From contig JADGDR010000001.1 of NCBI GenBank assembly GCA_016744795.1, forward strand, positions 248,001 to 312,000: DNA of 64,000 bases, given 5' to 3'. Positions within the stretch are counted from its first letter, which is position 1. Every line of letters begins with the position of its first letter. The position numbers were made by a program, and so were the translations under genes. The DNA is from Sulfurospirillum sp. Its GTDB lineage: Bacteria; Campylobacterota; Campylobacteria; Campylobacterales; Sulfurospirillaceae. The notes beneath the pieces were generated by a model, which had not been told where the DNA came from, ran no database searches, and saw only the letters and a program-made list of their open reading frames with translations. This document shows, piece after piece, positions 40,229 through 59,607 of the stretch.

Positions 40229-42493
40229 TTAATATTTAATTTTAAAATTTAAACTATAATTTCTTCCAGGAGAACTAAATCTCTCCACTCCTAAACCTTT
40301 ATAATCAACCATATTTGTTGTTCCAAATGTTGGTATGCTTCGTAAGTCATTCCATGTAAAATATTTTTTATTAAATATGTTATTTATTCCAAAGCCTAAA
40401 GAGAGATATTTATTAATATTCCAGTATCCTCTTAAATCTGAAACAAAAGCGGCTTTGTTTGTGTATTTTGAATATCTTTTAACTTCGCCTCTCCAGGTAT
40501 AAAGTGTTTCTTGGGTATCTTTTTTATTCTTTGCTGCCATATAGTTTGTAGAAAAGTAAAAACCATAGTTACTAGAATCAAAGCCTATTCCACCAAGAAC
40601 ATTAAAAGGTTGAATGGCTCTCATATCATCTCCTGTACTTTTTGACCCTTTAGTGTAAGTAGCCAAAAGTTTTGAGTAAAAACCTTCATTAAAATCAAAG
40701 GCTTCATGTAAGTCTAAATAACCAGAAAATTCTAGACCATAAATTTTTGCTTCATCAATATTGTCTGAAACAAAATGATACTCAGGCATATACTCTTCAC
40801 CATGATGATAATCTTTAAACCATGGATTTTCCACTAAAATACTATAATTTCTTTCTTCAATAAAATCTTTATATTTAGTGTAAAAACCACTTAAAACGCC
40901 CTGTCCTAATCTTCCATCAAATTTAAGTGCAATTTCTTGATTAATAGAATATTCAGATTTTAAGTCAGGATTTGGATCCATAAAGTTGTCACCAGCTGTA
41001 TATTCAAAATATAATTCTAAAGCTTTTGGAGCACGAAAACCCTTACTTATTTTGTATTCTAAGGCTATTTCATCACTAAATTGATAATTCAAGCGACTAA
41101 ACCAAGTTGGAGCTGCAAACTTTTTTATTTCTGATTCATATTTGGTATTATTATTACTAATCATAGGATCTTTTAAAGGTTTGTGCTGATAAATATCATA
41201 TCTAAAGCCTACATCCCACGTGAAATTATCATACTTATACGAATCTTTTATTTTTATATGAAACATTTTGCTATCAACAGGTTTAATAATACTGAAATTT
41301 CTTTTCCAGTTTATTTTGCCCTTATCAAACATAAGATCTCTATTTATATTTTTAAATTCAGTTGTTGTATAAGCTGAAGATAGATTAATATAATGATCTC
41401 CAAAGTTAGTTTCAATAGGAACAAATGAACTATTTAGACTTACACTTCTTATATTTTGAAAAGTATTTCTATCGTTTGTTTGAGTAAGAACTTTATTATT
41501 TTTTTCATATTTTTTTGTAATTGCATGCTGTTCAATATTTTGCTTAGAATATTTAAATTTTAATGTATCTATAAAAGAATTAATTGGCATGTACATGTAA
41601 GAAAACCCATATCTTTCATACGGTGACATATCTTTAGCAAAACGATGTTCATCACCAAAAGTTTCATATGATTTTTCTTCTGTATTTATTTTCATTTTTC
41701 TATTTTCAAAAAAACTATCAACACAATGTTCATCATTAAAGCAATAACCTAATTTAGTAAGAATTGAAGTTGATTCTTTAGTTGAAGGCTCTGATATTTG
41801 TCTTGCACTTCCATATATGTCTTCGCCCTTACTGAAAGTTTTAGTTTCATGTCCATCTCTTTTTACAATTTGAAATAAACCCTTAAGTCCATTATCTTTA
41901 AAACCCATTCCGAAAACTTTTACAAATTCTTCATTTTTAGAACCATAAGATAATTTATTATATAAACCTATGTTTTTACCAGGAAGTATAAAATCTTCTG
42001 CTACCTTTGTTCTAAATTCTACAGCTCCACCAATTCCTCCACTTCCCACACCAAAAGAGTCTGCACCCTTGCTAATAGCTACACTACTTATGTTTTCTAA
42101 TTCAGTTGTATTTCTATTTCCATTCATATAGCCATAGCCTGAATATACGCCAGGTATAAATGAATCTGCTTGAGCTATTCCATCTACTGTAATAGCTACT
42201 CTATCTGTTTCTACCCCTCTAATAGCGTATCCATTAGATCCTGAACGTCCACCTGAATTTACACTCACACCTGGAATATTTTTAAGTAAATCATATTCAT
42301 CATTAATTAATTCTTTCGTAAGTTCATCAGAATCTTTTGTTACTTTTCTTGAATCTATTTTATTTTCAAAACCAAGAACTGTAATTTCTCCAACTGAAGA
42401 GGTATTTTCATTTGCTAAACTATTATTTACGATAAGAGTATTGATAATCATTACAGTTAATATACTTTTTTTTAAGATTAACGCTCTATGCAT
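40229..42493 (-). CDS. TonB-dependent heme receptor, HutA/HmuR-like
   Basis: The 754-residue protein has a signal peptide (to about residue 28), a plug with IRGVETDRVAITVDGI and SKGADSFGVGSGGIGG, and a barrel ending NFKIKY. The FRAP box (residues 486-489) and NPDL box (508-511) identify the heme receptor family. The stretch between the two boxes has no histidine, although several characterised heme receptors have a ligand His there. It overlaps hutX by eight bases and is cotranscribed with hutW, hutX and the flavodoxin gene. Confidence 0.9.
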   Translation of the reverse strand: MHRALILKKSILTVMIINTLIVNNSLANENTSSVGEITVLGFENKIDSRKVTKDSDELTKELINDEYDLLKNIPGVSVNSGGRSGSNGYAIRGVETDRVAITVDGIAQADSFIPGVYSGYGYMNGNRNTTELENISSVAISKGADSFGVGSGGIGGAVEFRTKVAEDFILPGKNIGLYNKLSYGSKNEEFVKVFGMGFKDNGLKGLFQIVKRDGHETKTFSKGEDIYGSARQISEPSTKESTSILTKLGYCFNDEHCVDSFFENRKMKINTEEKSYETFGDEHRFAKDMSPYERYGFSYMYMPINSFIDTLKFKYSKQNIEQHAITKKYEKNNKVLTQTNDRNTFQNIRSVSLNSSFVPIETNFGDHYINLSSAYTTTEFKNINRDLMFDKGKINWKRNFSIIKPVDSKMFHIKIKDSYKYDNFTWDVGFRYDIYQHKPLKDPMISNNNTKYESEIKKFAAPTWFSRLNYQFSDEIALEYKISKGFRAPKALELYFEYTAGDNFMDPNPDLKSEYSINQEIALKFDGRLGQGVLSGFYTKYKDFIEERNYSILVENPWFKDYHHGEEYMPEYHFVSDNIDEAKIYGLEFSGYLDLHEAFDFNEGFYSKLLATYTKGSKSTGDDMRAIQPFNVLGGIGFDSSNYGFYFSTNYMAAKNKKDTQETLYTWRGEVKRYSKYTNKAAFVSDLRGYWNINKYLSLGFGINNIFNKKYFTWNDLRSIPTFGTTNMVDYKGLGVERFSSPGRNYSLNFKIKY

Positions 42494-42983
42494 TAGCGGT
42501 ATTTTCCTTTAAAAGTTCAAAAGATGCAACTTGTGATTCAATAGGTTTTTGTTTTTCATCTCTAGCTACAAAAAGTTTAAAAATATGTTCCCCATTAGCG
42601 TCAAAAAATTGAATAGAACGAGTTAACAAGCCATGAAATTTCTGTGTTATAAAAATAATTTTTTGTATGTCTGATACTTTTAAATGTCCTCCTAGAGGCG
42701 AATTTTTCATTTCAAAATTGTAATAACCTCTTGCATAACTACCCTGAGAAATTGAAGTTTTAAATTCTATTATGAAAGAAGGAGTGATTTTAATGAAAAG
42801 AACATCACCCCAAGTAGAAACATCTTTAATAATGTCATCAAAACATTTTCCATCAACTGCCTTAGCAATTTCTAAAGGCATATTTTGCAATACTTCATAC
42901 TCTTTAACTTCTAACATTTTTGCAATTTCAGAACTGCTTATATTTGGATTTTCATCTATTATTTTTTTTATATTTTCTTTCAT
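42486..42983 (-). CDS. hutX: Heme utilisation protein HutX/ChuX
   Basis: HutX/ChuX is a cytoplasmic heme-binding protein that passes heme to degrading enzymes. The 165-residue protein has the family layout: an N-terminal helical part, then YARGYYNFEMKNSPLGGHLK, FHGLLTRSIQFFDANGEHIFKLFVARD, typical of HutX. It lies one base after hutW and overlaps the heme receptor gene. Confidence 0.9.
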   Translation of the reverse strand: MKENIKKIIDENPNISSSEIAKMLEVKEYEVLQNMPLEIAKAVDGKCFDDIIKDVSTWGDVLFIKITPSFIIEFKTSISQGSYARGYYNFEMKNSPLGGHLKVSDIQKIIFITQKFHGLLTRSIQFFDANGEHIFKLFVARDEKQKPIESQVASFELLKENTANA

Positions 42984-42984
42984 T

Positions 42985-44346
42985 TTATATTCCTTTTTTG
43001 AATAATTTAAAAATTTTCTGTATTGAAACTGTTAAGTTCGTATACCAAAATTCTCCTGCCCTTGTTAAAGAATAACGAGATTCACTATCTTTTTTCAACA
43101 AACCTTTAATTAGTAAAAATTCTGTGATTTCATCAAGCAAAACTTTTTCTTCTTCGCACATATATTGTTTTAACAACAGCTTATTAATTACACCACCATT
43201 TAATTGAATTTCAAACTCTTTTTGAAGTAGTGAACTTGGCATATTCCTTGTCATAAAGCCAATAGGAGAATTACCTGCATTAACTAATTCAATATATTGT
43301 TTCAAGTCTCTTGTGTGCATAATTGCACTGTTTTCTATTTTCCCCCCAGAACCACAGCCTAAAGGAAGCATAAAACAGCCTGCTTTTGTAAAAGTATTAT
43401 AAAAATTTCTCTCTCTTGAATTTTTTGAAACATGTTGAGTGCTAATACGATTGTAACCATGGTCTTCAAGAGTAGTCATTGCCGTATCAAAATAATCATA
43501 TTTTTCTTTGTTTTCAAAATTATATGAAATTTTATTTGATTCAATATTTTTACTCAACAGAGTTTTTTCTAATAAAACTAATTGATAAATATCAGCTCCA
43601 TCAACACCACAATCCATAAGAAGTTGAATATCTTTTTTCCATGTTTCGCTGCTTTGTAATGGTAACCCGTACATTAAATCTATAACAGTTAAAAAACGTC
43701 CATCATTAACTAGGTCTTTAATAGTGCTTAGTATTTCTTCTTGAGTATTTCTTCGTCCTAGACTTTGTCTTATTTTTGTGTCAAAAGATTGTACGCCTAG
43801 AGATATTCTATTCATTCCAAAAGAAACCCAAGTATCAATTTTTTCTTTACTTAATCCCTTAAATCTACTTTCAACAGTAAATTCAACATCATTAGCAAAT
43901 TCTAGAGTCTCTTTTAACGCTATCATAATACTTGAAATATGTTTAGGTTCTAAATCAGTTGGTGTTCCACCTCCAAAATAGATAGCATGGAAAGGTAGCT
44001 CTTTTAACTGCTCATAATTATTAAGCATTTTAATTTCTTTAACTAAGGCATCTACATAGCTATTTAAATTTTTACTTGTTGTAGGGTTTTGATAAAAAGC
44101 ACAATAATCGCATTTCGTTTGGCAAAAAGGTATATGAATATATATAGAACGCTTATCTGATTTTTTTTGAGAAATTTTCAATAATTCACTAAAATATTCT
44201 TGTTGTGCAGGAACTCCCATTACCGGAGGGCCAGAAAATGATGGCATTTGTAATTGTTTTTTTTCATATAAGTCGCATAAATGTTCAACAGAATCTTTTC
44301 CAAGGATTTCACTATTTTCATCAAGTATTTTTTTTAAATATTTCAC
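42985..44346 (-). CDS. hutW: Anaerobic heme-degrading radical-SAM enzyme HutW/ChuW
   Basis: HutW/ChuW opens the porphyrin ring without oxygen and releases iron, giving anaerobilin. The 453-residue protein has the CX3CX2C cluster motif with cysteines at 75, 79 and 82 (HIPFCQTKCDYC), the glycine-rich YFGGGTPTD, and VQSFDTKIRQSLGRRN, all shared with HemN-like coproporphyrinogen oxidases from which this family arose. The neighbouring hutX, heme receptor and flavodoxin genes favour HutW over HemN. Its start overlaps the flavodoxin stop as TAATG. Confidence 0.9.
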   Translation of the reverse strand: MKYLKKILDENSEILGKDSVEHLCDLYEKKQLQMPSFSGPPVMGVPAQQEYFSELLKISQKKSDKRSIYIHIPFCQTKCDYCAFYQNPTTSKNLNSYVDALVKEIKMLNNYEQLKELPFHAIYFGGGTPTDLEPKHISSIMIALKETLEFANDVEFTVESRFKGLSKEKIDTWVSFGMNRISLGVQSFDTKIRQSLGRRNTQEEILSTIKDLVNDGRFLTVIDLMYGLPLQSSETWKKDIQLLMDCGVDGADIYQLVLLEKTLLSKNIESNKISYNFENKEKYDYFDTAMTTLEDHGYNRISTQHVSKNSRERNFYNTFTKAGCFMLPLGCGSGGKIENSAIMHTRDLKQYIELVNAGNSPIGFMTRNMPSSLLQKEFEIQLNGGVINKLLLKQYMCEEEKVLLDEITEFLLIKGLLKKDSESRYSLTRAGEFWYTNLTVSIQKIFKLFKKGI

Positions 44347-44888
44347 TAATTTCCTTTTTTAATATTTTTTATTATAATTGAAGCTAATTCCCAAACACTT
44401 TTTTTATTAAGTAAGGAAGTTGATTCTAATTTTTCTTTTAATTTTTCATCTTCAAATTTCATAATCTTTGTATAAAAACTATATAAAGAAGTTTGATCTT
44501 CTTTTGTCATATTAGAATAAATCATTTCTCCTAATAAAACTTCTTGATGAATAATATTTTTATGTAGTTGAGTAAATTCAGATATGATATTTAATATACC
44601 TTGATTGTTAAAACAGCGTTCTTTTTGCATAGCAACACAAACAATACTTAAAGATTTTTTCAATAATAAAGTTTGATTTTCTGTAATAAAAGAAGTGAAT
44701 TCTTTTAAAGCCTTACCTGAATAAACTGGACTAATTAGTACAATATGATTACTTTCATTACAAAGGGTAGCTTTTTGTGAAGAAATTATTTCATTTTGTA
44801 TTTCATGATGAAGTAATTTTTCTCCTATCCATTGAGATATTAATTTAGTAGAACCATATTTTGAACTATAAATAATTTGACATTGCAT
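44346..44888 (-). CDS. Flavodoxin-domain protein, HemG-like
   Basis: The 180-residue protein starts with a flavodoxin phosphate-binding loop SSKYGSTK and has VLISPVYSGKALKEF further on, as in the HemG protoporphyrinogen oxidase group. It is the first gene of the heme operon, beneath a Fur box. It may supply electrons to the radical-SAM enzyme HutW, which needs reduction, or act on porphyrins; the first fits the context better. A long C-terminal helical tail follows residue 140. Confidence 0.7.
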   Translation of the reverse strand: MQCQIIYSSKYGSTKLISQWIGEKLLHHEIQNEIISSQKATLCNESNHIVLISPVYSGKALKEFTSFITENQTLLLKKSLSIVCVAMQKERCFNNQGILNIISEFTQLHKNIIHQEVLLGEMIYSNMTKEDQTSLYSFYTKIMKFEDEKLKEKLESTSLLNKKSVWELASIIIKNIKKGN

Positions 44889-44952: not shown

Positions 44953-44967
44953 TCATAATCATTATCA
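44953..44967 (-). promoter_or_regulatory. Fur box upstream of the heme operon
   Basis: TCATAATCATTATCA matches the Fur 7-1-7 consensus at 13 of 14 positions. It lies 65 bases above the flavodoxin start, with a possible -10 (TATAAT on the minus strand, 44916-44921). No GGATT direct repeats follow, unlike the siderophore promoters, so this operon looks Fur-only. Confidence 0.7.
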
Positions 44968-46134: not shown

Positions 46135-46210
46135 AGTATAACCATAATGATAATATTTATCAATATAATTTTTGTTTGTTAAGGATTTTTTTTTATTATA
46201 AAAGTATTAA
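46135..46210 (-). promoter_or_regulatory. Composite Fur/AraC promoter of the DUF4198 gene
   Basis: TATACT on the minus strand (46135-46140), a Fur-like TGATAATATTTATCA (46148-46162, 13 of 14 matches), and direct repeats with GGATT at 46183 and GTATT at 46204, 21 bp apart. The second repeat overlaps the mntP stop codon. Confidence 0.65.
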
Positions 46211-46755
46211 CAAGCATTTTCGAATAAAATTTTAAATCCAATTAAAATTAATATAATTCCACCAAAAATTTCTGCTTTTTTTTCATATTTTGCATGGCTT
46301 TTGGCCCCTATGAAAACACCTATATATGAAAATATGAATGTTATTATGCCAATTATTAATAAACAGACATAAATGTTAAGTTCAATTAACTGCAAAGTAA
46401 ATCCAGCTACCATAGCATCTATACTAGTTGCTATAGCTAAAAATAATAAAAATTTATTTGATATATTTTTTATTGTCTCTTTTTTATTTTTATTACATGC
46501 TTCATATATCATTTTTATACCAATAAAAAGTAATAGGATAAAAGATATAAAACTATAATACTCTCCAACATATTGCTTAAGTCCAATTCCCCATGCATAC
46601 CCAATAAAAGGCATAATTGCTTGAAAAAAGCCAAAATATATGGCAGATTTCAATGCTAAAATTTTTGTATTACTTTGTCTTTTTGTTCCAAGACCAATTG
46701 AAACAGCAAGAGCATCCATACTAAGAGCAAAAGAAAAAATTAAAATATCAAGCAT
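46207..46755 (-). CDS. mntP: MntP-type manganese exporter
   Basis: The 182-residue protein has six hydrophobic segments in two halves. Each half contains an Asp motif, SMDALAVSIGLG near residue 12 and SIDAMVAGF near residue 115, as in MntP, which exports manganese. It overlaps the MFS gene upstream by eight bases and is the last gene of the ABC-MFS operon. Manganese export in an iron-limited cell would guard against an imbalance of the two metals. Confidence 0.85.
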   Translation of the reverse strand: MLDILIFSFALSMDALAVSIGLGTKRQSNTKILALKSAIYFGFFQAIMPFIGYAWGIGLKQYVGEYYSFISFILLLFIGIKMIYEACNKNKKETIKNISNKFLLFLAIATSIDAMVAGFTLQLIELNIYVCLLIIGIITFIFSYIGVFIGAKSHAKYEKKAEIFGGIILILIGFKILFENAC

Positions 46756-47917
46756 ATGCCCTATCTTTATACCTAATCGAAATAAAAGTTAATATAAAAA
46801 AAGAGATACCAACCAAAACAAAGGGAGCTATTGGGTTAATTTTATACAACAGTGTACTAACTATTGGTCCTAATATCATGCCAACTCCTTGTGCTGCTGA
46901 AACAGTTCCTGAGGCTGCCCCTTGTTCTTGTTTTGTTACAAGATTTACTGCAAGTGTTTGAAAAGCAGGAAAAAGCATACCATTACCAAAACCTCCTACG
47001 CAAAATCCAACTGTAAGTAAAAATTTAGAATTTGCAATAAATACGATGATATAACCTATCATCGCTATAAAAGATCCGTATTTTAAGAGATTTTTAGCTT
47101 TAAAATTGTTTTTTGAAACTATAATTTGAGAAATAATAAAAACCACCCCTATACAAGCAAGTATAACTCCTGTAGAACTAGATGCTTTAATAGCGTCTAA
47201 ATTGAATTTATCCATAAGATAAAACCCCATACAAACCTGTGCTGTGATAATGGAAAACATTGTAACAAAAGCTGCTATCATAGGAAGACGAAGCCTTTCA
47301 TCAAAAAGTTTTATGGGAGGAGTTTTTTCACTTGTTAATGGCTTTTCATGTGGTAAAATAAAATATAAAACAATAGCTCCAAGCATTGGAAGTACAGCAA
47401 AAACATATAAAGGAGTACTCAATCCAAATTTTGCCAAATATCCTCCAATTGGAGGTCCTATAACCATTCCTATTCCACTGCTAGCTGCAAGTTTTGCAAT
47501 ATATGAAGTTCTTTTTTCTTTTTCTACATGATCAGCTATTAAAGCATTTGAAACAGGAGTAATTGCTGCATAAAATGCCCCAATTAAACTTCTAGTTACA
47601 ATTAAAACTAACAAAGATACAATAACAACAGGAGGTGATATCAAAGCAAAATCAACAAAAATAGCCAATGCCAAATAAGATAATGCTACACCCACAACTC
47701 CTATGAGTAAAATGGGTTTTCTTCCTTCTATATCACTTTTTCTTCCCCAGTATCTTGACAATAGAACCCAAACAATTCCAGAAAATGCCACTGTTAATCC
47801 TGCATGCCACTCTTGCATATGAAGTTCTCTTATAAGAGGTCCAACTATAGCTATAAATGTCATCATAGCTGAAACACATAAAACATTTACAAGCATTAAA
47901 ATTTTTATTTCTTTCAT
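46748..47917 (-). CDS. MFS transporter, drug/siderophore type
   Basis: The 389-residue protein has twelve membrane segments and the MFS loop motif RYWGRKSDIEGRKPILLIG between helices 2 and 3, with a second-half signature. It resembles TetA-like exporters (SAAQGVGMILGPIVS). In the ABC operon it could export siderophore after iron release or act on another solute. It lies eight bases after a second MFS gene. Confidence 0.82.
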   Translation of the reverse strand: MKEIKILMLVNVLCVSAMMTFIAIVGPLIRELHMQEWHAGLTVAFSGIVWVLLSRYWGRKSDIEGRKPILLIGVVGVALSYLALAIFVDFALISPPVVIVSLLVLIVTRSLIGAFYAAITPVSNALIADHVEKEKRTSYIAKLAASSGIGMVIGPPIGGYLAKFGLSTPLYVFAVLPMLGAIVLYFILPHEKPLTSEKTPPIKLFDERLRLPMIAAFVTMFSIITAQVCMGFYLMDKFNLDAIKASSSTGVILACIGVVFIISQIIVSKNNFKAKNLLKYGSFIAMIGYIIVFIANSKFLLTVGFCVGGFGNGMLFPAFQTLAVNLVTKQEQGAASGTVSAAQGVGMILGPIVSTLLYKINPIAPFVLVGISFFILTFISIRYKDRAYA

Positions 47918-47925
47918 ATTTTTCC

Positions 47926-49188
47926 TTAGTATTGTATATCTAATTGAGTAGCTATATTTTTTTCATTATGTGAGTTTACATCTACTTTTGTTGTAACTAT
48001 ATCATCTACATTTGTAGAAAAATATACCGCTAATAGTCCTAAGAGTGCACTTGAAATAATTATAGTTGTGTAACCAAATACTCCAGATAAAGACACCGCT
48101 AAACTTGTAAATAAAACTCCTGAAAACATAGAAAAACTATGTTGAATAGCAAATTGTGAAGCTGGAGATTTAGTAGATGCTTCATCCATCATAAGTGTTG
48201 TCATCACGACAGAAGAAGGTGTATAAAAACTAAATATAAGACCAACCACAATCATTGCAATAAAACTACTATTGTATTGACTTAAAAGAAGTAACAAAAG
48301 TAACATACCAAAAATCTGTCCAATAGCTGCTACTACTAAAATATTTTTCCTACCATATTTTGTAATTAGCCAAGAGGCAGTAAAAGACGCCAATACTCCT
48401 ATGCCATATCCCACTATATGCACTGCAAAACCTATCTTATCTAAACCCCAATGTGCATCAACTAAAATAGGAGTAATAAGACCATAAGCAGAACTAATTG
48501 TTAGTGGATACACAAAGAGTAATAAAAGCCACTTTTTTCTTTTTGAACCTTTCCAAAAGTCTATATACTGTTTATAGTCTATTTTATCTTGTATGTTTTC
48601 TTTTTTTCTTTTTGGTTCTATATAAAAAAGTATCTGAATCAATGAAATAGCAGTTGCAATTGATAAAGCTATCATAGTATATTTCCAACCATAAGATGAA
48701 TATATTATAAGCCCAAAACCACCACCTAGAACCATGCCTATCATACCACCTGCTGATTTAATAGCATTTGCAGTTGGTAGTTGTGAATGAGAAACACTTT
48801 TCATTACAAGTGCATCAAGTGCTATATCTTGAGATGCTGAAAAAAAGGCAAACAATACACTTAAAATTATAACCATTTGCCTATTAGAAAAAATGTCAAA
48901 CAGTGATGTATAAAATAGGACTATAACCATCAATGATTGAAATATGATAATCCAACCTCTATAGTGACCTAAATTTTTAAACTCAATTTTATCTATAAAA
49001 GGAGCCCATAAAAATCTAAGCACCCAAAACAAACCTAACATATATACTAATCCTAAATGCTCTAAAGGCATCCCATTTTTTCGTAAAATTGCAATAAGTG
49101 CTTCTGTAAAAAAGGCTAATCCTAAAAATTGAGTAGTATAAAGACTAAAAAGTAATGATATATGCTGTTTTGTTAATGCTTTAGCCAT
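47926..49188 (-). CDS. MFS transporter, RhtX/FptX/YbtX-like
   Basis: The 420-residue protein has twelve membrane segments and resembles AmpG-like siderophore permeases such as RhtX, FptX and YbtX, with RFLWAPFIDKIEF and FSASQDIALDALVMKS in the first half. It follows the ABC transporter genes directly, as YbtX does in the yersiniabactin cluster, and may take ferric siderophore across the inner membrane. The last 30 residues are a polar tail. Confidence 0.82.
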   Translation of the reverse strand: MAKALTKQHISLLFSLYTTQFLGLAFFTEALIAILRKNGMPLEHLGLVYMLGLFWVLRFLWAPFIDKIEFKNLGHYRGWIIIFQSLMVIVLFYTSLFDIFSNRQMVIILSVLFAFFSASQDIALDALVMKSVSHSQLPTANAIKSAGGMIGMVLGGGFGLIIYSSYGWKYTMIALSIATAISLIQILFYIEPKRKKENIQDKIDYKQYIDFWKGSKRKKWLLLLFVYPLTISSAYGLITPILVDAHWGLDKIGFAVHIVGYGIGVLASFTASWLITKYGRKNILVVAAIGQIFGMLLLLLLLSQYNSSFIAMIVVGLIFSFYTPSSVVMTTLMMDEASTKSPASQFAIQHSFSMFSGVLFTSLAVSLSGVFGYTTIIISSALLGLLAVYFSTNVDDIVTTKVDVNSHNEKNIATQLDIQY

Positions 49189-49189
49189 A

Positions 49190-50950
49190 TTATAAATTCC
49201 ATTGTTTTATTCTTTGTTGGGCTTTTGACATATCATAATATTTACCTTTTTTATCAAGAAGTTCTTTGTGTGTTCCTTGTTCATTAATTTTTCCATCTTC
49301 CATAACTATAATTGTATTTGCATGTGAAATAGTTGAAAGACGATGAGCAATAACGATAACTGTTTTATCTTGTATCAATTCATCTAAAGCATTTTGAACA
49401 GCAACTTCACTTTGTGTGTCTAGTGCTGATGTTGGTTCATCAAGAATGACAATAGGAGCATCTTTTAAAATTGCACGAGCTATACTTATTCTTTGCTTTT
49501 CACCGCCACTTAAATTTCCACCAATTTCACCAACTTTTGTCTCATAACCATTTGGTAATCTTGTAATGAATTCATGACAATATGCTTTTGAGGCTGCTAT
49601 TTGAACCTCATCATCACTTGCACTTGGTTTTCCCATGCGGATATTGTTTAAAATAGTATCATCAAAAAGATACACATCTTGAAATACTACTGAAATATAC
49701 CTCATTAATTGAATTTGAGTCATATTTTTTGTATTAATACCACCTATTTCTACATTTCCACAACTTGGATCATCATATCTCATAATTAGTTTTGTAATAG
49801 TTGTTTTACCTGAACCACTTGGTCCAACAATTGCTGTTAAAGAATTCTCTTTAATCTGGAATGAAACATTATTAATAGCTTTGTTATTATAATCCAAATA
49901 ATTAAAATCAACGTCCTTAAACTCTATATTAAATACTTTAGGTACTTTTATAGGATTTTTTACTTCTAAATCTTTTTGTTTAAGTACCCCTTGAATATGT
50001 TTAAATCCTGTTTCCATCACATCTAATACACCTGTAATTGAAAGAAAATTTGCTAAAGGTTCAGATAATCTACCTAAAATAACCAATATTGCTACAAGTG
50101 TAGCTATAGTTATAGTGGCATCTGCTATCCATAATGCACCTAAAGAAAGTACCATCAAAAATACGAACTCTACTAAAGTAATCATAACAACTGTTGGCAT
50201 AGTTATACCAAAAACTCCATTTTTTTGTACTTCTCTTGCTTGGGCTATGGAATCTTGTAAATTCTTAGCATTTTTCCCTACTTGATTAATTGAACGTAAT
50301 ATTGGTAAACCTTGAAGATACTCTATAGTATCAGCTTCTAATGTTGCATGAACTTTTGCATTGTCAATTTTTTCTTGTTTTGTTCTTCCACGACTCCACT
50401 TGTAGATAGGGATAGATAAAGGAAAAGCTATAAGCATAGCAAGAGCCATTTTTACATTGATAAAAAATGTTACAAAAACTATTACAAAAGGCACTATAAT
50501 TGCTTCTAGTCCCATACCTGCAACAACTCCCATATGTAAAACTGATTGGTCTACATTTGAAGCCAAAATCGCGTTGAGTTCACCTGTACGGTATTTGTTT
50601 AATCTTTGAAGTGGCATTGTTTTAATTTTGTTCCCTAACTTCACTCTTAGATTATGTGTCACATCTGTTAAGTCTGTTGAGTAGTTAAAATTTAATGCTA
50701 CCCAATGAAAACTAAGCGATATTATAGTGGAAATTACAATCAATCCAAACCACAATAAAGCATCGTTTAAAACAAAAGTTTCACTAAACATAAGAGATAA
50801 CAATGGAAAAAAGAAAGCAAATGCTAAACCTCTAGTAACGAATGACAAAATATAAAATAAGTAACTCTTTTTTAAAGCACTAGCTTTTGTATCTGCTATT
50901 TCAATAGTTGTTTTGTAACTTTGGGCTAATGATGATACTTCTTGACTCAT
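49190..50950 (-). CDS. ABC transporter, fused permease-ATPase (YbtQ-like)
   Basis: The 586-residue protein has six membrane segments (residues about 30-310) and a C-terminal ATPase with Walker A GPSGSGKTT, LSGGEKQRISIARAIL signature, and VILDEPTSALD Walker B. It forms a likely heterodimer with the next gene, like YbtP/YbtQ and IrtA/IrtB, which import or reduce ferric siderophores. The ATG at 50950 has GGAGG at a good distance and overlaps the stop of the partner gene as TAATG; the frame up to 50980 lies inside the partner. Confidence 0.88.
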   Translation of the reverse strand: MSQEVSSLAQSYKTTIEIADTKASALKKSYLFYILSFVTRGLAFAFFFPLLSLMFSETFVLNDALLWFGLIVISTIISLSFHWVALNFNYSTDLTDVTHNLRVKLGNKIKTMPLQRLNKYRTGELNAILASNVDQSVLHMGVVAGMGLEAIIVPFVIVFVTFFINVKMALAMLIAFPLSIPIYKWSRGRTKQEKIDNAKVHATLEADTIEYLQGLPILRSINQVGKNAKNLQDSIAQAREVQKNGVFGITMPTVVMITLVEFVFLMVLSLGALWIADATITIATLVAILVILGRLSEPLANFLSITGVLDVMETGFKHIQGVLKQKDLEVKNPIKVPKVFNIEFKDVDFNYLDYNNKAINNVSFQIKENSLTAIVGPSGSGKTTITKLIMRYDDPSCGNVEIGGINTKNMTQIQLMRYISVVFQDVYLFDDTILNNIRMGKPSASDDEVQIAASKAYCHEFITRLPNGYETKVGEIGGNLSGGEKQRISIARAILKDAPIVILDEPTSALDTQSEVAVQNALDELIQDKTVIVIAHRLSTISHANTIIVMEDGKINEQGTHKELLDKKGKYYDMSKAQQRIKQWNL

Positions 50951-52734
50951 TATACTGCCTCCTTTGTTTCTAAGTTCCACTTTTGGGCTTTTTTATAATT
51001 ACTCCACAAATTAAAATAAACTTGTTTGTTATTTAAAAGTTCTTGGTGTTTACCAATCTCTTTTATTTTTCCTTCATCTATTACAATTATTTGATTCACG
51101 TCTTTGATAGTTGAAAGACGGTGAGCGATAACGATAACTGTTTTGTCTTTCATAAGATTTGCTAAAGCTTTGATAATTTCCTCTTCATTTTCAGGGTCGG
51201 CAAAAGCAGTAGCTTCATCTAGCACAATAATAGGATTATCTCTTAATATTGTTCTTGCTATTGTAATTCTTTGTTTTTGTCCACCAGAAAGGTTAGCACC
51301 TCTCTCACCTGCTTTTGTATCATACCCATTTGGTAAAGATTCTATAAAATCATGAATTTGTGCTGCTCGTGCTGCTTCTATCACATCTTCATTACTTGCA
51401 TTTGGATTTGCCATTTTAATATTGTTAAAAATAGAATCAGCAAAAAGAAAAGTATCTTGAAATACAAAAGAGACTATATCCATAAGATTATCATTTGATA
51501 TATCTCTTATATCTATATCTCCTATTTTTATACTTCCTTGCGTTACATCCCAAAATCTTGGAATTAGTTTGGCTACTGTACTTTTTCCTGCCCCACTAGG
51601 TCCTACTATTGCCGTTATACTTTTAGTAGGAACTTTAAAACTTATATCTTTTAAAGCTCTTTTGCCTGTTTTATTATAAGAGAAAAATACCTTTTCAAAA
51701 GAGATAGATATGTCATTTGGTATTTTACTATCTTTGGTTTCTGGTAAATCATCTATATCCATAATCTCCTGTATTCTTAAAGCTGCTGCTTGTGACTTTT
51801 TGATTAAATTATTTAGCCACATTAAAGGCATCAGTGAATCTGCCATACCTGTACTTAAAAATAGTGCTAAGATTAAAGATGATAACTCCAATGTACCATT
51901 ATTTAAGAGATAAATTGCAGTGATTAAAATAGCTAATAATGTAGTCAAAGGTGTAAGTATAAGCATACCAAACTTTGCACTTGTCTTTGTCTTTGACATC
52001 CATAAATTTAAGTTTTTTCTATAGGAAAACAAAGAATCATTATATTTTTTAAAAGATTCACTTCCATCATCAAAAGTTCGTACAACTGGCATAGCTTGAG
52101 CAAACTCTACAACTGCTTTATTTATCTCTGTTTGACTCTCTTCATATTTTACTCTATACTCTACAGAATCTTTCATAGCAAATGACATAACAGTACCACC
52201 TACAACTAATACAAAAATACTAGCAAGTGCCAATCTATAATCAACAATAAATAAAATTATTATCGTAAACACAGGAGCTACCACACTTTTTGCAATCATA
52301 GGTGTACTATCTGCTACAAAAACATGCAAAGCACTTACATCATCTTTTAATACTTTTTTTAAAGCACCTGATCCTGTAGAGATGATATATCCCAAAGGTA
52401 CTTTTGAAAGATGAAAAGATAAATCTGTTCTTAAAATTTGTTCCAACCTAAAAGCACCTAAATGAGAAACGATAAAAGCACTTAATCTTGTTATAAAAGC
52501 AATAACCGTAATAATAGCAAGTGCAATGACAGTATTGAAAAGGTCAAATTCTATATCAAATATTTTTATAGGAGTTCCATCTAAAATATTCGATAAAGTA
52601 AATGAAAGAAGAGTCAAACTAGCTATTAAACTAATAGCACCAATGGAAGCTAAAAATATCGCTATGCGAATCTCAAAATTTACAGGGACTAAAATAGCCC
52701 ACAATCCTGTTTTTCGTTTTATTTGTTTTTTCAT
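50950..52734 (-). CDS. ABC transporter, fused permease-ATPase (YbtP-like)
   Basis: The 594-residue protein has six membrane segments (residues 15-310) and an ATPase domain with GPSGAGKST, LSGGQKQRITIARTIL and IIVLDEATAFADPE. The last motif, ATAFAD in place of ATSALD, marks a divergent half-site, as in YbtP/IrtA-type partners. It is the first gene of a five-gene operon (ABC, ABC, MFS, MFS, mntP) below a composite Fur/AraC promoter. Confidence 0.88.
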   Translation of the reverse strand: MKKQIKRKTGLWAILVPVNFEIRIAIFLASIGAISLIASLTLLSFTLSNILDGTPIKIFDIEFDLFNTVIALAIITVIAFITRLSAFIVSHLGAFRLEQILRTDLSFHLSKVPLGYIISTGSGALKKVLKDDVSALHVFVADSTPMIAKSVVAPVFTIIILFIVDYRLALASIFVLVVGGTVMSFAMKDSVEYRVKYEESQTEINKAVVEFAQAMPVVRTFDDGSESFKKYNDSLFSYRKNLNLWMSKTKTSAKFGMLILTPLTTLLAILITAIYLLNNGTLELSSLILALFLSTGMADSLMPLMWLNNLIKKSQAAALRIQEIMDIDDLPETKDSKIPNDISISFEKVFFSYNKTGKRALKDISFKVPTKSITAIVGPSGAGKSTVAKLIPRFWDVTQGSIKIGDIDIRDISNDNLMDIVSFVFQDTFLFADSIFNNIKMANPNASNEDVIEAARAAQIHDFIESLPNGYDTKAGERGANLSGGQKQRITIARTILRDNPIIVLDEATAFADPENEEEIIKALANLMKDKTVIVIAHRLSTIKDVNQIIVIDEGKIKEIGKHQELLNNKQVYFNLWSNYKKAQKWNLETKEAV

Positions 52735-52764: not shown

Positions 52765-52842
52765 AGTATATAGGTATTGATATTATTTATCAATACCTAT
52801 TATTATTCTAAAAGGATTATCTTTTATTTTAAAGGGATTAAA
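52765..52842 (-). promoter_or_regulatory. Composite Fur/AraC promoter of the ABC operon
   Basis: TATACT on the minus strand (52765-52770) is followed upstream by a perfect 13-bp dyad (52770-52782 and 52788-52800, loop TTATT) whose centre, TGATATTATTTATCA (52778-52792), matches 12 of 14 Fur positions. Direct repeats with GGATT at 52814 and 52835 lie 21 bp apart. Confidence 0.75.
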
Positions 52843-54330: not shown

Positions 54331-54356
54331 GGTATTATAATTTTATTTATAATACC
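54331..54356 (-). terminator. Terminator at the end of the methyltransferase-MFS operon
   Basis: GGTATTATAA and TTATAATACC form a perfect 10-bp dyad with a six-base loop. It overlaps the stop codon of the MFS gene at 54343, so the last codons are part of the stem. Confidence 0.55.
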
Positions 54357-55521
54357 TATAAATAATAAATACCAACAATAACATGCATATAAATTCAAAT
54401 AAGAACATCCCCTCAAAACCAACACTTGACACGAGAGCTCCAGCAATAACTGCAGATATTATTCTTGTAAATGAAAAAAGGCTTGACTGAATAGCATAAT
54501 CTACAGCTCTTGATTCTTTTCTACTATAGTCCATTATCATTGAAAAGATTATTGCTGAAGACAGAGAAATAGCTAGTGCTGTAAAGGTAACAGAAATAAG
54601 CAAGAAACTAAGTGTTAATTCAAATTGTTCTACAAATATCAAAATTAAACTACTTATAATATTAAATATCATAAAAGCTATAAGAAAAGTTTTTTTACTA
54701 TACTTATTACTTATATTACTTGCTATTATTCCTCCTAAAATTCCTATAATACTTCCATATATTCCTACGTATATTGCTACATCATCGGGTTTAATTCCTT
54801 TACTAATAAAGTATGGTTTCATGAAAATAAAAATTGCACTAATAAATGCAAAATAAAATGAGAGTAAAAACACCCATATCCCTATATTCTTTTGTCTGAA
54901 AAAGGAGATAATAGTTTTAAAAGATACTCTATTTTCTTCTATCTTTTCAGATTTTTCTTCTATGAAATATAGAGCCATTAAAGAGAACATAACCATAGCA
55001 GCCATTAATCTAAAAGTATCACTCCACCCTAAATGATTGTAGAACAATAAAAATACTCCACCGCCCATTAGTCCTGCTAAACAATATGAGCTTATCTTAT
55101 AACTTCCAGCACTTATTCTTTGTTCTTTAGTAAAAACCTTTATTGCCAATGCATTGAGTGGAATATCTATAAATGTTGAGATCAAAGCTGTAATTAGAAT
55201 AGCTACAAAGACTACATGTATACTATTTTCTAAAGATAAAAAGCTAATACCCACAAGTAAAACTACATAAATAATTCCAGTAAAAAACACCCATTTTTTA
55301 TAATGATTTTTTTCAAATACTATTTTATCAATAGGAGGAGAGAGTAAAAACTTCAATACAGTAGGAATACCTACTATTTGAAAAAGTCCAATAAGTGAAG
55401 CTTCAAATCCTTTCATTTGAAGTATCATAGGAAGCCCCATCGTAAAAAATATAAATGGAGTTAAAAATGATGTAAAAAGTATCCCAAAAAAAATGTTTTT
55501 TTTAATTAATGTAGTTATCAT
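54343..55521 (-). CDS. MFS transporter of the receptor 2-methyltransferase operon
   Basis: This 392-residue protein has twelve membrane segments and resembles the RhtX/FptX group (PTVLKFLLSPPIDKIVF, LITALISTFIDIPLNALAIKVF), like the carrier at 47926. It is the last gene of the operon receptor 2, methyltransferase, MFS, with a three-base gap before it. It probably moves the ligand of receptor 2 or its methylated form across the inner membrane; direction is not visible. Confidence 0.8.
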   Translation of the reverse strand: MITTLIKKNIFFGILFTSFLTPFIFFTMGLPMILQMKGFEASLIGLFQIVGIPTVLKFLLSPPIDKIVFEKNHYKKWVFFTGIIYVVLLVGISFLSLENSIHVVFVAILITALISTFIDIPLNALAIKVFTKEQRISAGSYKISSYCLAGLMGGGVFLLFYNHLGWSDTFRLMAAMVMFSLMALYFIEEKSEKIEENRVSFKTIISFFRQKNIGIWVFLLSFYFAFISAIFIFMKPYFISKGIKPDDVAIYVGIYGSIIGILGGIIASNISNKYSKKTFLIAFMIFNIISSLILIFVEQFELTLSFLLISVTFTALAISLSSAIIFSMIMDYSRKESRAVDYAIQSSLFSFTRIISAVIAGALVSSVGFEGMFLFEFICMLLLVFIIYRYYK

Positions 55522-55524
55522 ATT

Positions 55525-56520
55525 TTACTTTTTAGCTATATGAATTTGAAATGGAGTCATTGGCATATCGTGATTTGTGTATGAATTTATACTTCTAAAT
55601 CCAACTTCTTCGAAAATATTAGATAACTCCATAGGTTCTAATTTATTTCGTTTTTGCATATTTAAAAATAAAAAGTAAAAGTAACTTATTTTATCTAACA
55701 TATTATTGTTATCTATCTCTACATGAGCACTTACTAAAATTCCTTTTGGAGATAAAGCATCATATATTTTTTGTATCACCTCTTTTTTATCTTTAAAAAA
55801 ATAAAAAATATTACTACACCAAATTAAGTCATATCCACTTCCTATGTCATCAAATTCCATATCTCCATTTAAAGTTGTTACTCTATCTTCTAAGTTGTAC
55901 TCTTTTATATGTTCATTTGCAACATTTACCACTTCTTTATAGTCAAACAACACACCTTTCATCGTAGGATGTTCTTTTATCATTTCTAAACCAATTATTC
56001 CAGATGAACAACCAAGGTCAAGAACTTTGCTCATATTTTTAAATTCTTTTAGATTCTTTACAATATTAACTGCAACTGGTGAGATAAGATTTTTTTGTTC
56101 TTGTTTTAACACTATTTTTGCTGCATTTGCCCATTTTTTAGGGTGTTTAGAATCAACCATTTCTCCACAACCGTTTTTAACTAATGATTTAGTCATCTTC
56201 CTTGCATTATTTATTATCTCTTTTCTATTTAAATAGACATCTCCACAATATTGTGAAGAGTCATATACAAAAAATTGTTTAGTTACGTCTTTATTTGTAT
56301 ATATTTCATCAGTTAATTGTAGCAAATCCATAAAGACTAACCCATCTAATAATACTTTTGTATTGTGTCTATCGCTACATAATTTTTGTGCTAAACTATG
56401 TGCAGTATGTTCATCGTCTTCAAGTAGTTTAAATATTTTTAAATTTAGAGCTATGCCTAAAAGTTCCGTTTCTTGTTGAACTAACAACTTATTTAAATAT
56501 CTGTTTATGTTATTTTTCAT
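55525..56520 (-). CDS. SAM-dependent methyltransferase in a receptor operon
   Basis: The 331-residue protein has an N-terminal winged-helix dimerisation domain (about residues 1-85) and a C-terminal class I methyltransferase with the SAM motif VLDLGCSSG at 166-174, an acidic Asp (FDYKEVV), and DLIWCSN. This is the plan of small-molecule O-methyltransferases such as acetylserotonin and hydroxyneurosporene types. It lies eight bases after the receptor gene and three bases before the MFS gene, so it is in one operon with them. Modifying an imported siderophore is a plausible but untested role. Confidence 0.85.
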   Translation of the reverse strand: MKNNINRYLNKLLVQQETELLGIALNLKIFKLLEDDEHTAHSLAQKLCSDRHNTKVLLDGLVFMDLLQLTDEIYTNKDVTKQFFVYDSSQYCGDVYLNRKEIINNARKMTKSLVKNGCGEMVDSKHPKKWANAAKIVLKQEQKNLISPVAVNIVKNLKEFKNMSKVLDLGCSSGIIGLEMIKEHPTMKGVLFDYKEVVNVANEHIKEYNLEDRVTTLNGDMEFDDIGSGYDLIWCSNIFYFFKDKKEVIQKIYDALSPKGILVSAHVEIDNNNMLDKISYFYFLFLNMQKRNKLEPMELSNIFEEVGFRSINSYTNHDMPMTPFQIHIAKK

Positions 56521-56528
56521 TTTTTTCC

Positions 56529-58532
56529 TTAAAATCTATAAGCTAATTTAACACCAATTTCTCTACTCTCACGATATATAGTTGTGGTCCCATTAAAATA
56601 AGCATTCGTTGCATGATGTTCTTTATCAAAAAGATTGTTTGCATATAGATAAATATCATAATTCTTTTTCTCATAACCAATCTTTGTATCTACTAGTTGA
56701 TAAGCTTTTTGAGAGTATTTATTTGCACTATCAAAATATGTTTTACCATATCCACTTACATCAACTCTTGCATAATATCCGCTACCAACTCTATACTGAG
56801 TTCCTATATTAAAGTTATATTTTGGAGCAGAAGGATTGATGTTTCCACTATAATCCCCTTTTATATCTTTAAAATCATCAAATGAAGTATCATTTAACCC
56901 ACCACTTGCAAATAAAGTGATTTCATCATTTAATAATGCTTCAAATTCTATTTCAATACCTTTTGAAGTTGCACTTGCTGCATTAACTACATATGCAACC
57001 CCTGGAGTTACCATCTCTTGAACTTGCATATCATCAACATTCATATAATAGATACTTGCATTAAATTTAATAGTATCTTTAAAAAACATGCTCTTATATC
57101 CAAGTTCATAAGATATTAAATTTTCTTCATCGTAAGATTGTTTATCGCTTGCTAAGGCAAAAGGATTAAATCCCCCACTTTTATAACCTTTTGCTACTGT
57201 CACATAAGCTATACTATTCTTGTTTATATCATATTGAAGTGATACTTTTGGAGATATATTTTCCCACTCATTATCTATATATATATTTGTACCTCCAACT
57301 TCTATATCTTTTTTTTCTTTGTCATATCGTATACCACTATTTAAAGTCCATTTAGCAGTTATGGGATGTATGATATTTATAAATATTCCCATAGTTTTTG
57401 ATGTAAGATATTGTGGTTTTGAATTTGAACCAGTAGGATCCATCATAGTTTTTCGTACCAAAGATAAATCATTTTCCTCTTTATCAAAATAAATTCCACT
57501 TACAATTTTAGTATCTGATATATCTTTTTCTAGTCTTAGCTCTTGGGATAAAGTTTTAAATTTACTATTTCTATAAAAATGTACTAATGTTTTTGCAGAA
57601 ACATCACTATCAACAATGGCTTTATCATGATGTACTCTTTTTGTAGTGATTGACTTTAATTTTGTTTCATTGTCTATATCATAATCAACGCTTAAAGCAA
57701 AAGTTTCAATCGTAGGAGTAGCAGAACCTTCAATATTTGACGATACAACTATATCTTCACTTTGCCCTGCTTTTGCCCAGTCTATAGCACCATCATCGTT
57801 TTTACTTTTTGATGCTATTAAAGATATATCAAGACTGTCTGTAGGAGTATATCTCAAATTAACTTTTCCATAATTGCTCTGCTTGTTGTTTACATATTTT
57901 CCTGTTTTAGTGTGTTTGATAAAACCATCTTTTTCATTATGTTTATATGAAACACCTATATAAAACTTATCTTTAACAACTGCACCTGATGCATTAATAC
58001 CAAGCTCTCTTTTGCCATCAATTCCAATTGTGCTAAATACCTTTCCTCTTGATTCATTGTTTGGTTTTCTTGTAATTACATTGATGACACCGACTTCAGA
58101 GTTTTTACCATAAAGTGTACCTTGAGGACCTTTTAGTACTTCTATTCTTTCAATATCTTCTAATCCATCAGAAAAACCAAAACTACTCATAGTAGGTACT
58201 CCATCGACGTATAAACTAACAGGAGAAGAATAAGAGGTAATACTTGCACTAATACCTCGAATAGACGGGGAAGTTAAACCTTGTTGACCTCTATTAAAAA
58301 ACATTAAGTTCGGTGTATATTTTCCTATATCTTCTAAACTAGAAATAGATTTGTCTTCTATGGAAATTTCATCAAATACAGATAGACTAATAGGTACTTT
58401 TTGGACATCTTCCTCACTTTTTTGAGCTGTTACTGTTACCGTATCTAAACTTGCAACATTTTTAGCTAAAATATTACTAACTAAGAATACACTTAGTACT
58501 ACTGAAAGTATAATCCTTTTCGAATCTATCAT
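56529..58532 (-). CDS. TonB-dependent siderophore receptor 2, FyuA-like
   Basis: The 667-residue receptor has a signal peptide (to about residue 23), TVTVTAQK, plug motifs SIRGISAS, VDGVPTMS and IEVLKGPQGTLYGKN, and a barrel end GVKLAYRF. It is paralogous to the receptors at 32287 and 59595. It starts a three-gene operon with a methyltransferase and an MFS carrier and is divergent from an AraC-type regulator gene. Confidence 0.92.
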   Translation of the reverse strand: MIDSKRIILSVVLSVFLVSNILAKNVASLDTVTVTAQKSEEDVQKVPISLSVFDEISIEDKSISSLEDIGKYTPNLMFFNRGQQGLTSPSIRGISASITSYSSPVSLYVDGVPTMSSFGFSDGLEDIERIEVLKGPQGTLYGKNSEVGVINVITRKPNNESRGKVFSTIGIDGKRELGINASGAVVKDKFYIGVSYKHNEKDGFIKHTKTGKYVNNKQSNYGKVNLRYTPTDSLDISLIASKSKNDDGAIDWAKAGQSEDIVVSSNIEGSATPTIETFALSVDYDIDNETKLKSITTKRVHHDKAIVDSDVSAKTLVHFYRNSKFKTLSQELRLEKDISDTKIVSGIYFDKEENDLSLVRKTMMDPTGSNSKPQYLTSKTMGIFINIIHPITAKWTLNSGIRYDKEKKDIEVGGTNIYIDNEWENISPKVSLQYDINKNSIAYVTVAKGYKSGGFNPFALASDKQSYDEENLISYELGYKSMFFKDTIKFNASIYYMNVDDMQVQEMVTPGVAYVVNAASATSKGIEIEFEALLNDEITLFASGGLNDTSFDDFKDIKGDYSGNINPSAPKYNFNIGTQYRVGSGYYARVDVSGYGKTYFDSANKYSQKAYQLVDTKIGYEKKNYDIYLYANNLFDKEHHATNAYFNGTTTIYRESREIGVKLAYRF

Positions 58533-58567: not shown

Positions 58568-58641
58568 AGTATATACTTTAAAATACTGATAGTCAATATC
58601 AATATTATTCTGTATGGTTTCATTTCTATTATTAAAGGAGA
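58568..58641. promoter_or_regulatory. Composite Fur/AraC-type region between receptor 2 and its AraC regulator
   Basis: TATACT on the minus strand (58568-58573), TGATAGTCAATATCA (58587-58601, 12 of 14 Fur matches), and a degenerate pair with GGTTT at 58616 and GGAGA at 58637, 21 bp apart. The second overlaps the ribosome-binding site of the regulator. The motif differs from the other arrays, which could reflect a different regulator. Confidence 0.5.
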
Positions 58642-58644
58642 AGA

Positions 58645-59607
58645 ATGTGTAAATTACATTTAAAAGATTTACTGCAGGAATGTTTTATTTCTAAACAAAA
58701 TATTATTAAAAATAGATTTCCAAAAAATATTGGTAAAGATTATATGGAAAAAGTAAATATCCAAGATGGATTTTTGTTACTAAAAACAAACTATACCTTT
58801 AATCAACCTACACAAATAGAGTCAAGACAAAATAAGACAAAATTTGTAATAGCAATGTCTTTAAAAGGAAACTCTACTTATACAAATGAAAATGATAAAA
58901 AAATAGTTCCATTCAAAGAAGGGTTTACAACTATATCACTTTTTGAAAAAACTCAAGGTTATAGAGAATTTAAAGATAAAGAGATAGAGCAAATAAGACT
59001 TATTTTAGATGAAGATTTTTTACAAAGAAATTTAAAAAAAAGTTTATTAGAAAAGTATTTTATAAACAGTGATAAATATTTAAATCTTATACATTTTTCT
59101 CCCACTTTGATACAATCACAAATTTTAATAAAAGAGATACTAACTTGCCAATTGCAAGGAGAACTTAAAAAAATATACCTACAAAGTAAATCATTAGAAT
59201 TATTACATGTAGAACTTTCAAAACTAAACACAAAAGAGAAGAAAATCATACTAGATAATTACGATAAAGAAGCCATTCGTAAAGCAAAAGAGATTTTAAT
59301 ACAAAACATACAAAATCCACCCTCAATTGTAGAATTATCAAAACTAGTACATATAAATGAATTTAAATTAAAAGCGGGATTTAAAGAAATATTTCATACA
59401 AGCCCCTATAAATTACTCTTAAAATATAAGATGAATGAAGCAAAAATAATGCTTGAATCTGGAGAGTATAATATTAATGAAGTAGCAAATTTAATAGGTT
59501 ATAAATTTGCTAGTAACTTTACTAATGCTTTTTTTAAGAGATTTGGAATACTCCCAAAAGATTTAATGAAAAAAAAAGAATATCCACAAATTCATCAAAA
59601 TCTATAG
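58645..59607 (+). CDS. AraC-type regulator 2, divergent from receptor 2
   Basis: The 320-residue protein has a variable N-terminal domain and the C-terminal AraC helices: PPSIVELSKLVHINEFKLKAGFK, YNINEVANLIGYKFASNFTNAF and RFGILPKDLMKKKEY. It is paralogous to regulators 1 and 3. Its last 13 bases overlap the end of the convergent receptor 3 gene. Likely it responds to the ligand of receptor 2. Confidence 0.9.
   Translation: MCKLHLKDLLQECFISKQNIIKNRFPKNIGKDYMEKVNIQDGFLLLKTNYTFNQPTQIESRQNKTKFVIAMSLKGNSTYTNENDKKIVPFKEGFTTISLFEKTQGYREFKDKEIEQIRLILDEDFLQRNLKKSLLEKYFINSDKYLNLIHFSPTLIQSQILIKEILTCQLQGELKKIYLQSKSLELLHVELSKLNTKEKKIILDNYDKEAIRKAKEILIQNIQNPPSIVELSKLVHINEFKLKAGFKEIFHTSPYKLLLKYKMNEAKIMLESGEYNINEVANLIGYKFASNFTNAFFKRFGILPKDLMKKKEYPQIHQNL

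Follow-up and report, generated by a model that had tools for sequence, protein, structure and literature searches.

The exit of iron from imported siderophores is known for few systems, in which it proceeds by reduction, ester hydrolysis or acetylation. In the genome of Sulfurospirillum sp. (GenBank assembly GCA_016744795.1), a stretch of 64,000 bp of contig JADGDR010000001.1 (positions 248,001 to 312,000; hereafter, the window) contains a compact operon in which the gene of a class I S-adenosylmethionine (SAM) methyltransferase lies between the genes of a FyuA-like TonB-dependent receptor and a carrier of the major facilitator superfamily (MFS). The components for uptake belong to known types; what is new is the methyltransferase in its fixed place. 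The reading to which we give about an even chance is that of a self-contained xenosiderophore uptake cassette, controlled by Fur and an AraC-type regulator, whose cytosolic methyltransferase would methylate the imported ligand, most likely completing iron release.

The pyochelin locus fptABCX of Pseudomonas aeruginosa with its regulator PchR shares with this operon an AraC-type regulator, a TonB-dependent receptor and a single MFS transporter of the RhtX/FptX kind as the import route. FptX imports ferric pyochelin by proton motive force (PMC10846271), and regulators of the PchR type bind the siderophore in its ferric form (PMC10281387). However, the pyochelin system has no methyltransferase and its host makes its own pyochelin, while the carrier of the window is far below the RhtX/FptX cut-off. 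In the yersiniabactin system (FyuA, YbtPQ, YbtX and YbtA), FyuA is the nearest solved receptor, and a YbtP/YbtQ-like pair and an RhtX/FptX-like MFS gene are located near the operon of the window. The difference is that none of the searched types of synthesis genes is present here and that the cassette exists without YbtP or apart from the Ybt-like cluster. For ferrichrome in P. aeruginosa, PMC8891985 (citing Hannauer 2010) describes iron reduction followed by acetylation of the desferrisiderophore. The likeness lies in the chemical modification of an imported xenosiderophore tied to iron release, and the difference in acetylation instead of methylation and in other enzyme and receptor families. 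The hiuABC operon of Caulobacter crescentus (PMC12424826) is also a compact xenosiderophore operon with a receptor and dedicated processing proteins in a host that is not a known siderophore maker, but a PepSY-domain putative reductase and a small membrane protein replace the methyltransferase and the MFS carrier. No description of a methyltransferase in siderophore uptake, with RhtX/FptX transporters or in Arcobacter iron uptake was found in the open-licence literature. PDTC and thioquinolobactin were weighed as precedents and nothing usable was found in the literature searched.

Three minus-strand open reading frames (ORFs) span positions 54343-58532 of the window (Table 1). The receptor gene is followed after 8 bp by the methyltransferase gene and after a further 3 bp by the carrier gene, as was described in the initial annotation. 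The receptor contains the plug domain (PF07715, E-value 5.8e-18) and the barrel domain (PF00593, 3.2e-38) according to Pfam. Its top PDB relative was the pesticin receptor FyuA (4epa, 7.7e-48), with the next family at about 1e-25, so the FyuA-like label is apt; this similarity is at the family level only. The TIGR01783 model (TonB-siderophor) gave the top score among all models, 167.9 bits, which is under its cut-off of 223.5 bits. The assignment of the second protein as a class I SAM methyltransferase was confirmed by PF00891 (8.8e-17, 61.6 bits versus a gathering score of 22.3); the dimerisation domain PF08100 was borderline, just below the cut-off. Its PDB relatives are distant and include 2r3s (uncharacterised, the best match with the single sequence), SibL, MfnG, RedM, DtpM and others. 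Structure prediction from the single sequence gave a predicted local distance difference test score (pLDDT) of 38. An alignment of 15 proteins (13 from Campylobacteria, one from Vibrio and one from Pantoea; a broken copy in genome G127 was excluded) revealed invariant W234-C235-S236, H266-x-E268 and Q140-E-Q142 residues.

The carrier matched the AmpG model TIGR00901 (4.8e-37, 127.6 bits, far below the curated cut-off) and the RhtX/FptX model TIGR02718 (3.5e-24, 85.5 bits versus a cut-off of 356.15). Since both scores are far below the cut-offs and the AmpG model scored higher, the original label of an RhtX/FptX-type carrier fits only loosely, and what stands is a related MFS protein. Like RhtX/FptX transporters, it shares an operon with a siderophore-type receptor. 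It had also been suggested that methylation might mark the ligand for export; by analogy with the characterised relatives AmpG and FptX, which are importers, export through this carrier is argued against, and the import by FptX with proton motive force fits import, not export, by the protein of the window.

Orthologues were surveyed across the class Campylobacteria in a sample of 397 genomes that included the genome under study. Methyltransferase orthologues with 55-65% identity were found in 10 genomes from five genera. Orthologues of the carrier (56-69% identity, every other match being at most 31%) and of the receptor (59-65%, the nearest other receptors being at 36-49%) were present in the identical 10 genomes, and the non-orthologous matches to these two proteins were paralogues. 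When 104 genomes from a single family were searched in addition, four more genomes with the methyltransferase were found. The order receptor, methyltransferase, MFS carrier was kept in all 14 genomes, and a divergent AraC orthologue preceded the receptor gene in 13 of them, the 14th being cut by a contig end. The initial annotation had held that absence of the methyltransferase gene from this position in close relatives would speak against its proposal; the gene was found at this position in each of the 14 genomes checked. Chance adjacency or hitchhiking of the methyltransferase was ruled out by the conserved order and the exact co-occurrence. The divergence of the receptor, methyltransferase and carrier was correlated (Spearman 0.79-0.94). 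The ratio of non-synonymous to synonymous substitution rates (dN/dS) of the methyltransferase between close pairs was 0.11-0.24, similar to that of its neighbours, which indicates purifying selection. The comparative genomics of the cassette can be regarded as firm. Some variation was also observed. The reading frame of the methyltransferase is broken in G127, and in genome G343 an insertion containing a transposase-like ORF interrupts the carrier gene (L059:11251-12588). In three genomes (L053, L054 and L055), about 236 bp separate the receptor and methyltransferase genes; in one translated case, this gap holds a gene of a 74-aa DUF2798 membrane protein within the operon.

The methyltransferase, receptor and carrier were searched singly against 72,556 plasmids, and the top match of each was on a plasmid of Vibrio nigripulchritudo. 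On this plasmid, the AraC, receptor, methyltransferase and MFS genes stand in the same order, with 27-34% identity, and a further MFS gene comes after them; all four proteins match the cassette member better than its paralogue in the window. The Vibrio plasmid order, together with the order in 14 of 14 genomes and the co-occurrence in the same 10 of 397, upholds the view that the methyltransferase is part of the uptake unit. This fixed place in every related genome in which the methyltransferase was found suggests that the enzyme probably processes the imported molecule. The Vibrio cassette adjoins oxidoreductase, cupin, acyl-CoA dehydrogenase-like and acetyltransferase genes, which resemble a small biosynthetic cluster (L050:19288-28405). 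Remote plasmid matches of the methyltransferase in Rhizobium CIAT894 and Bosea were methyltransferases without receptor neighbours. The methyltransferase profile found no match in 369 genomes of the SAR86 class, a sample with no positive-control genome, so the gene or cassette appears to be rare in this class; a lone SAR86 methyltransferase match was rejected as unrelated, and the profile did not match its genome.

In Pantoea sp. At-9b, a relative of the methyltransferase is divergent to an AraC gene, without a receptor. This arrangement, the co-inheritance of AraC, receptor, methyltransferase and carrier, and the binding of the ferric siderophore by PchR-type regulators (PMC10281387) would suit a role in signal control, in which methylation of the ligand turns AraC, as a sensor of the unmodified ferric ligand, off or on, so that the enzyme would tune the gain of this circuit and not release iron. 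We consider such a circuit highly improbable. It counts against this explanation that, to our knowledge, the known AraC-controlled siderophore systems function without such a methyltransferase.

The receptor gene is separated from the divergent AraC gene by 112 bp. The Fur/AraC-type promoter that had been proposed here was borne out, at the level of prediction, by a conserved Fur-box-like site over the -35 element and by the AraC gene itself. The predicted site (TGATAGTCAATATCA) matches the Fur consensus at 12 of the 14 specified positions, and a site as good as this occurred in only 0.9% of shuffled 112-bp intergenic regions. Among 13 homologous regions, including that of the window, 10 have the site in the same place with at most two mismatches, and the remaining three have 3 or 4. 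The cassette is apparently iron-regulated through a Fur-box-like promoter.

The promoter also bears on the possibility that the methyltransferase has an unrelated function, acting on a quinone, tRNA or another housekeeping substrate, or that the ligand is no siderophore. As the substrate does not follow from the sequence family, there is room for this explanation, but it appears very unlikely. The gene was found in only 10 of the 397 genomes and always in this operon, under the Fur-box-like promoter, and its absence from the other 387 argues against quinone or tRNA as the substrate. A quinone, tRNA or other named methyltransferase identity was rejected, as the scores of the NCBIfam models were all far below their cut-offs.

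No siderophore biosynthesis genes were found near the cassette in the stretch read, as had been noted from the outset, and this extends to the whole genome for the two principal classes of assembly genes. Condensation domains of non-ribosomal peptide synthetases (NRPS) and IucA/IucC were each absent from all 10 cassette carriers, the genome under study included, and the control genomes were positive. Because these classes are lacking in the ten carriers, the imported ligand is probably a xenosiderophore, the methyltransferase has no obvious biosynthetic task, and its service in siderophore assembly of the NRPS-condensation or IucA/IucC type seems unlikely. A related explanation is that the methyltransferase is a finishing enzyme, which methylates a small self-made or scavenged precursor into a chelator that is then reimported through the receptor and carrier. 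Secondary-metabolite assembly often involves Methyltransf_2 enzymes and the absence tests were confined to the two classes named, which would be compatible with such a role. However, besides the lack of these genes in ten carriers, the flanks read contained no conserved biosynthetic neighbour of the cassette and no linked exporter, and we regard a finishing enzyme as distinctly unlikely.

Tracing of FyuA-like receptors on plasmids led to operons with another methyltransferase family. On a plasmid of Shinella sp. HZN7, the genes of an AraC regulator, a receptor and an RhtX/FptX-type MFS protein stand in a row with those of a short methyltransferase (Methyltransf_11) and a cupin. A related carrier is directly adjacent in all six plasmids with the Methyltransf_11 enzyme (four of Shinella, one of Rhizobium ACO-34A and one of Tistrella). 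In Rhizobium, all five parts (AraC, receptor, MFS, methyltransferase and cupin) were confirmed with Pfam. In Tistrella mobilis, a methyltransferase-cupin fusion follows the RhtX/FptX-type carrier (L095:6977-7906), whereas the two are separate neighbours in Shinella and Rhizobium. These operons resemble the cassette in having the same four types of parts in one operon and in lacking biosynthesis genes within the inspected stretches; they differ in the cupin and in the methyltransferase, which stands after the carrier, not before it. The Methyltransf_11 enzyme has only the SAM-binding core in common with the methyltransferase of the window, and the two are non-orthologous. No description of this operon type as a system was found in the literature searched.

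Other plasmids fill the same place differently. A Klebsiella operon has a PepSY membrane protein (a putative reductase) between the receptor and the RhtX/FptX carrier, and a Bartonella plasmid has a receptor, an MFS protein and two ATP-binding cassette (ABC) half-transporters. The variation of these operons between lineages suggests that the slot beside the carrier holds a lineage-specific step, as if for ligand processing, and that methyltransferases were recruited at least twice. The broader proposal that siderophore utilisation includes methylation of a donor atom as a step of its own (for iron release or a block of re-chelation), evolved separately in at least two lineages with different methyltransferase families, is tentative and in our estimate rather doubtful.

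The recruitment of two unrelated methyltransferases would also suit a shared chemical hazard. The ligand itself may be harmful, as a metal-stripping chelator, a sideromycin or a redox-active thiol or phenol, and the methyltransferase may inactivate it. Thiol methyltransferases inactivate such compounds in the producers of dithiolopyrrolones or gliotoxin. DtpM, one of the PDB relatives of the methyltransferase profile, comes from a dithiolopyrrolone-type context according to its depositors. A methyltransferase without biosynthesis genes suits protection and release equally. However, the DtpM match is remote and lies below many other methyltransferases, and the gene is within an import operon under a Fur-box-like promoter, so that the importer and the enzyme would be produced together. 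Detoxification is accordingly judged an unlikely explanation.

The preferred reading, in which the imported ligand is methylated for the use of its iron, can be set out as follows. AraC would sense the ligand, the FyuA-like receptor would move the ferric complex through the outer membrane, and the MFS carrier would move it through the inner membrane, as FptX does with pyochelin. In the cytosol, the methyltransferase would then methylate the imported ligand. It may be speculated that methylation of a donor atom, after or together with Fe(III) reduction, blocks re-binding by the freed ligand in the cytoplasm, like the acetylation of desferrichrome; the identity of the donor atom and a function in iron release are both speculative, and methylation may equally serve to detoxify or recycle the ligand. 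We know of no earlier description of donor-atom methylation for the release of iron from siderophores. The suggestion of the initial annotation that an imported siderophore is methylated is partly supported: the imported ligand is a probable substrate, as judged from the lack of assembly genes in the ten carriers. Its further proposals, that the methylated group may be a catechol, phenol or carboxylate, that the iron affinity would fall and that the product may be exported, are conjectural.

Several observations weigh against this reading. A Trichormus plasmid has a related receptor and MFS alone, without a methyltransferase, and methylation is therefore no general requirement of this import route. 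Methyltransf_2 enzymes act on many O, N, S and C atoms, and the nearest solved relatives of the methyltransferase are uncharacterised or active on unrelated small molecules. In the alignment, the register of which to the classical motif was placed by eye, the catalytic His of classical O-methyltransferases is replaced by Tyr in the Campylobacteria and Pantoea proteins and is present only in that of Vibrio; because of this Tyr, the chemistry of the enzyme is unreadable from sequence. Finally, of the possible small-chelator pathways, only those marked by NRPS condensation domains or IucA/IucC were searched for.

A YbtP/YbtQ-like pair and an RhtX/FptX-like MFS gene (47926-52734) are located a few kb from the cassette. 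Dependence of the cassette on YbtPQ was ruled out, as among the 10 cassette carriers YbtP is absent in two and the YbtPQ cluster is elsewhere in the genome in two others. Since the cassette stands without YbtPQ, the receptor and the MFS carrier may be the entire import route. The pair belongs to a five-gene row on the minus strand (46207-52734) encoding YbtP-like, YbtQ-like, RhtX/FptX-like MFS, second MFS and MntP proteins, the order of which is kept in several relatives, and a Fur-box-like site was found upstream of the row at 52778. In G343 (L081, L082), a striking expansion was observed, with a long row of AraC/FyuA-like receptor pairs by the YbtPQ cluster and the methyltransferase cassette elsewhere.

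Table 1. Features of the cassette, its control region and the neighbouring Ybt-like genes (positions in the window).
Feature	Position	Strand	Basis
FyuA-like TonB-dependent receptor (667 aa), encoded first in the operon	56529-58532	-	PF07715, PF00593; PDB 4epa
SAM-dependent class I methyltransferase (Methyltransf_2 type), 331 aa, candidate for ligand processing	55525-56520	-	PF00891
MFS carrier, 392 aa, AmpG- and RhtX/FptX-related, putative inner-membrane ferric-ligand importer	54343-55521	-	MFS_1 4.9e-31
Divergent AraC-family regulator gene of the cassette	58645-59607	+	PF12833
Sigma-70-type promoter TTGACT-17-TATACT, 10/12 consensus positions	58568-58596	-	conserved in alignment
Fur-box-like palindrome TGATAGTCAATATCA over the -35 of the receptor promoter	58587-58601	-	2 mismatches to consensus TGATAATNATTATCA
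YbtP-like ABC gene	50950-52734	-	6p6i_A 529 bits vs 377 for next
YbtQ-like ABC gene	49190-50980	-	6p6i_B 459 bits vs 403 for next
Second RhtX/FptX-like MFS	47926-49188	-	TIGR02718 1.6e-42

Other loci were noted in the same genome. In the window, a TonB-dependent receptor gene is located near that of a HemN/HutW-looking radical SAM protein (40229-44888, minus strand), possibly for haem uptake, with a Fur-box-like site at 44953. Contig 15 (L084:7375-12938) contains genes for a FyuA-like receptor, a DUF4198 protein, AraC and a small Methyltransf_11/25 methyltransferase, followed by that of an HlyD-type protein. A further locus (L085:5296-15860) encodes a 1327-aa protein that is CobN-like by eye, ExbB/ExbD/TonB-like proteins and another TonB-dependent receptor.

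A methyltransferase fixed in an uptake operon of Campylobacteria and of a Vibrio plasmid, with an alphaproteobacterial parallel, is a compact and testable candidate for a further route of ligand processing. The cassette is also a handle for identifying the foreign siderophores that these bacteria exploit.

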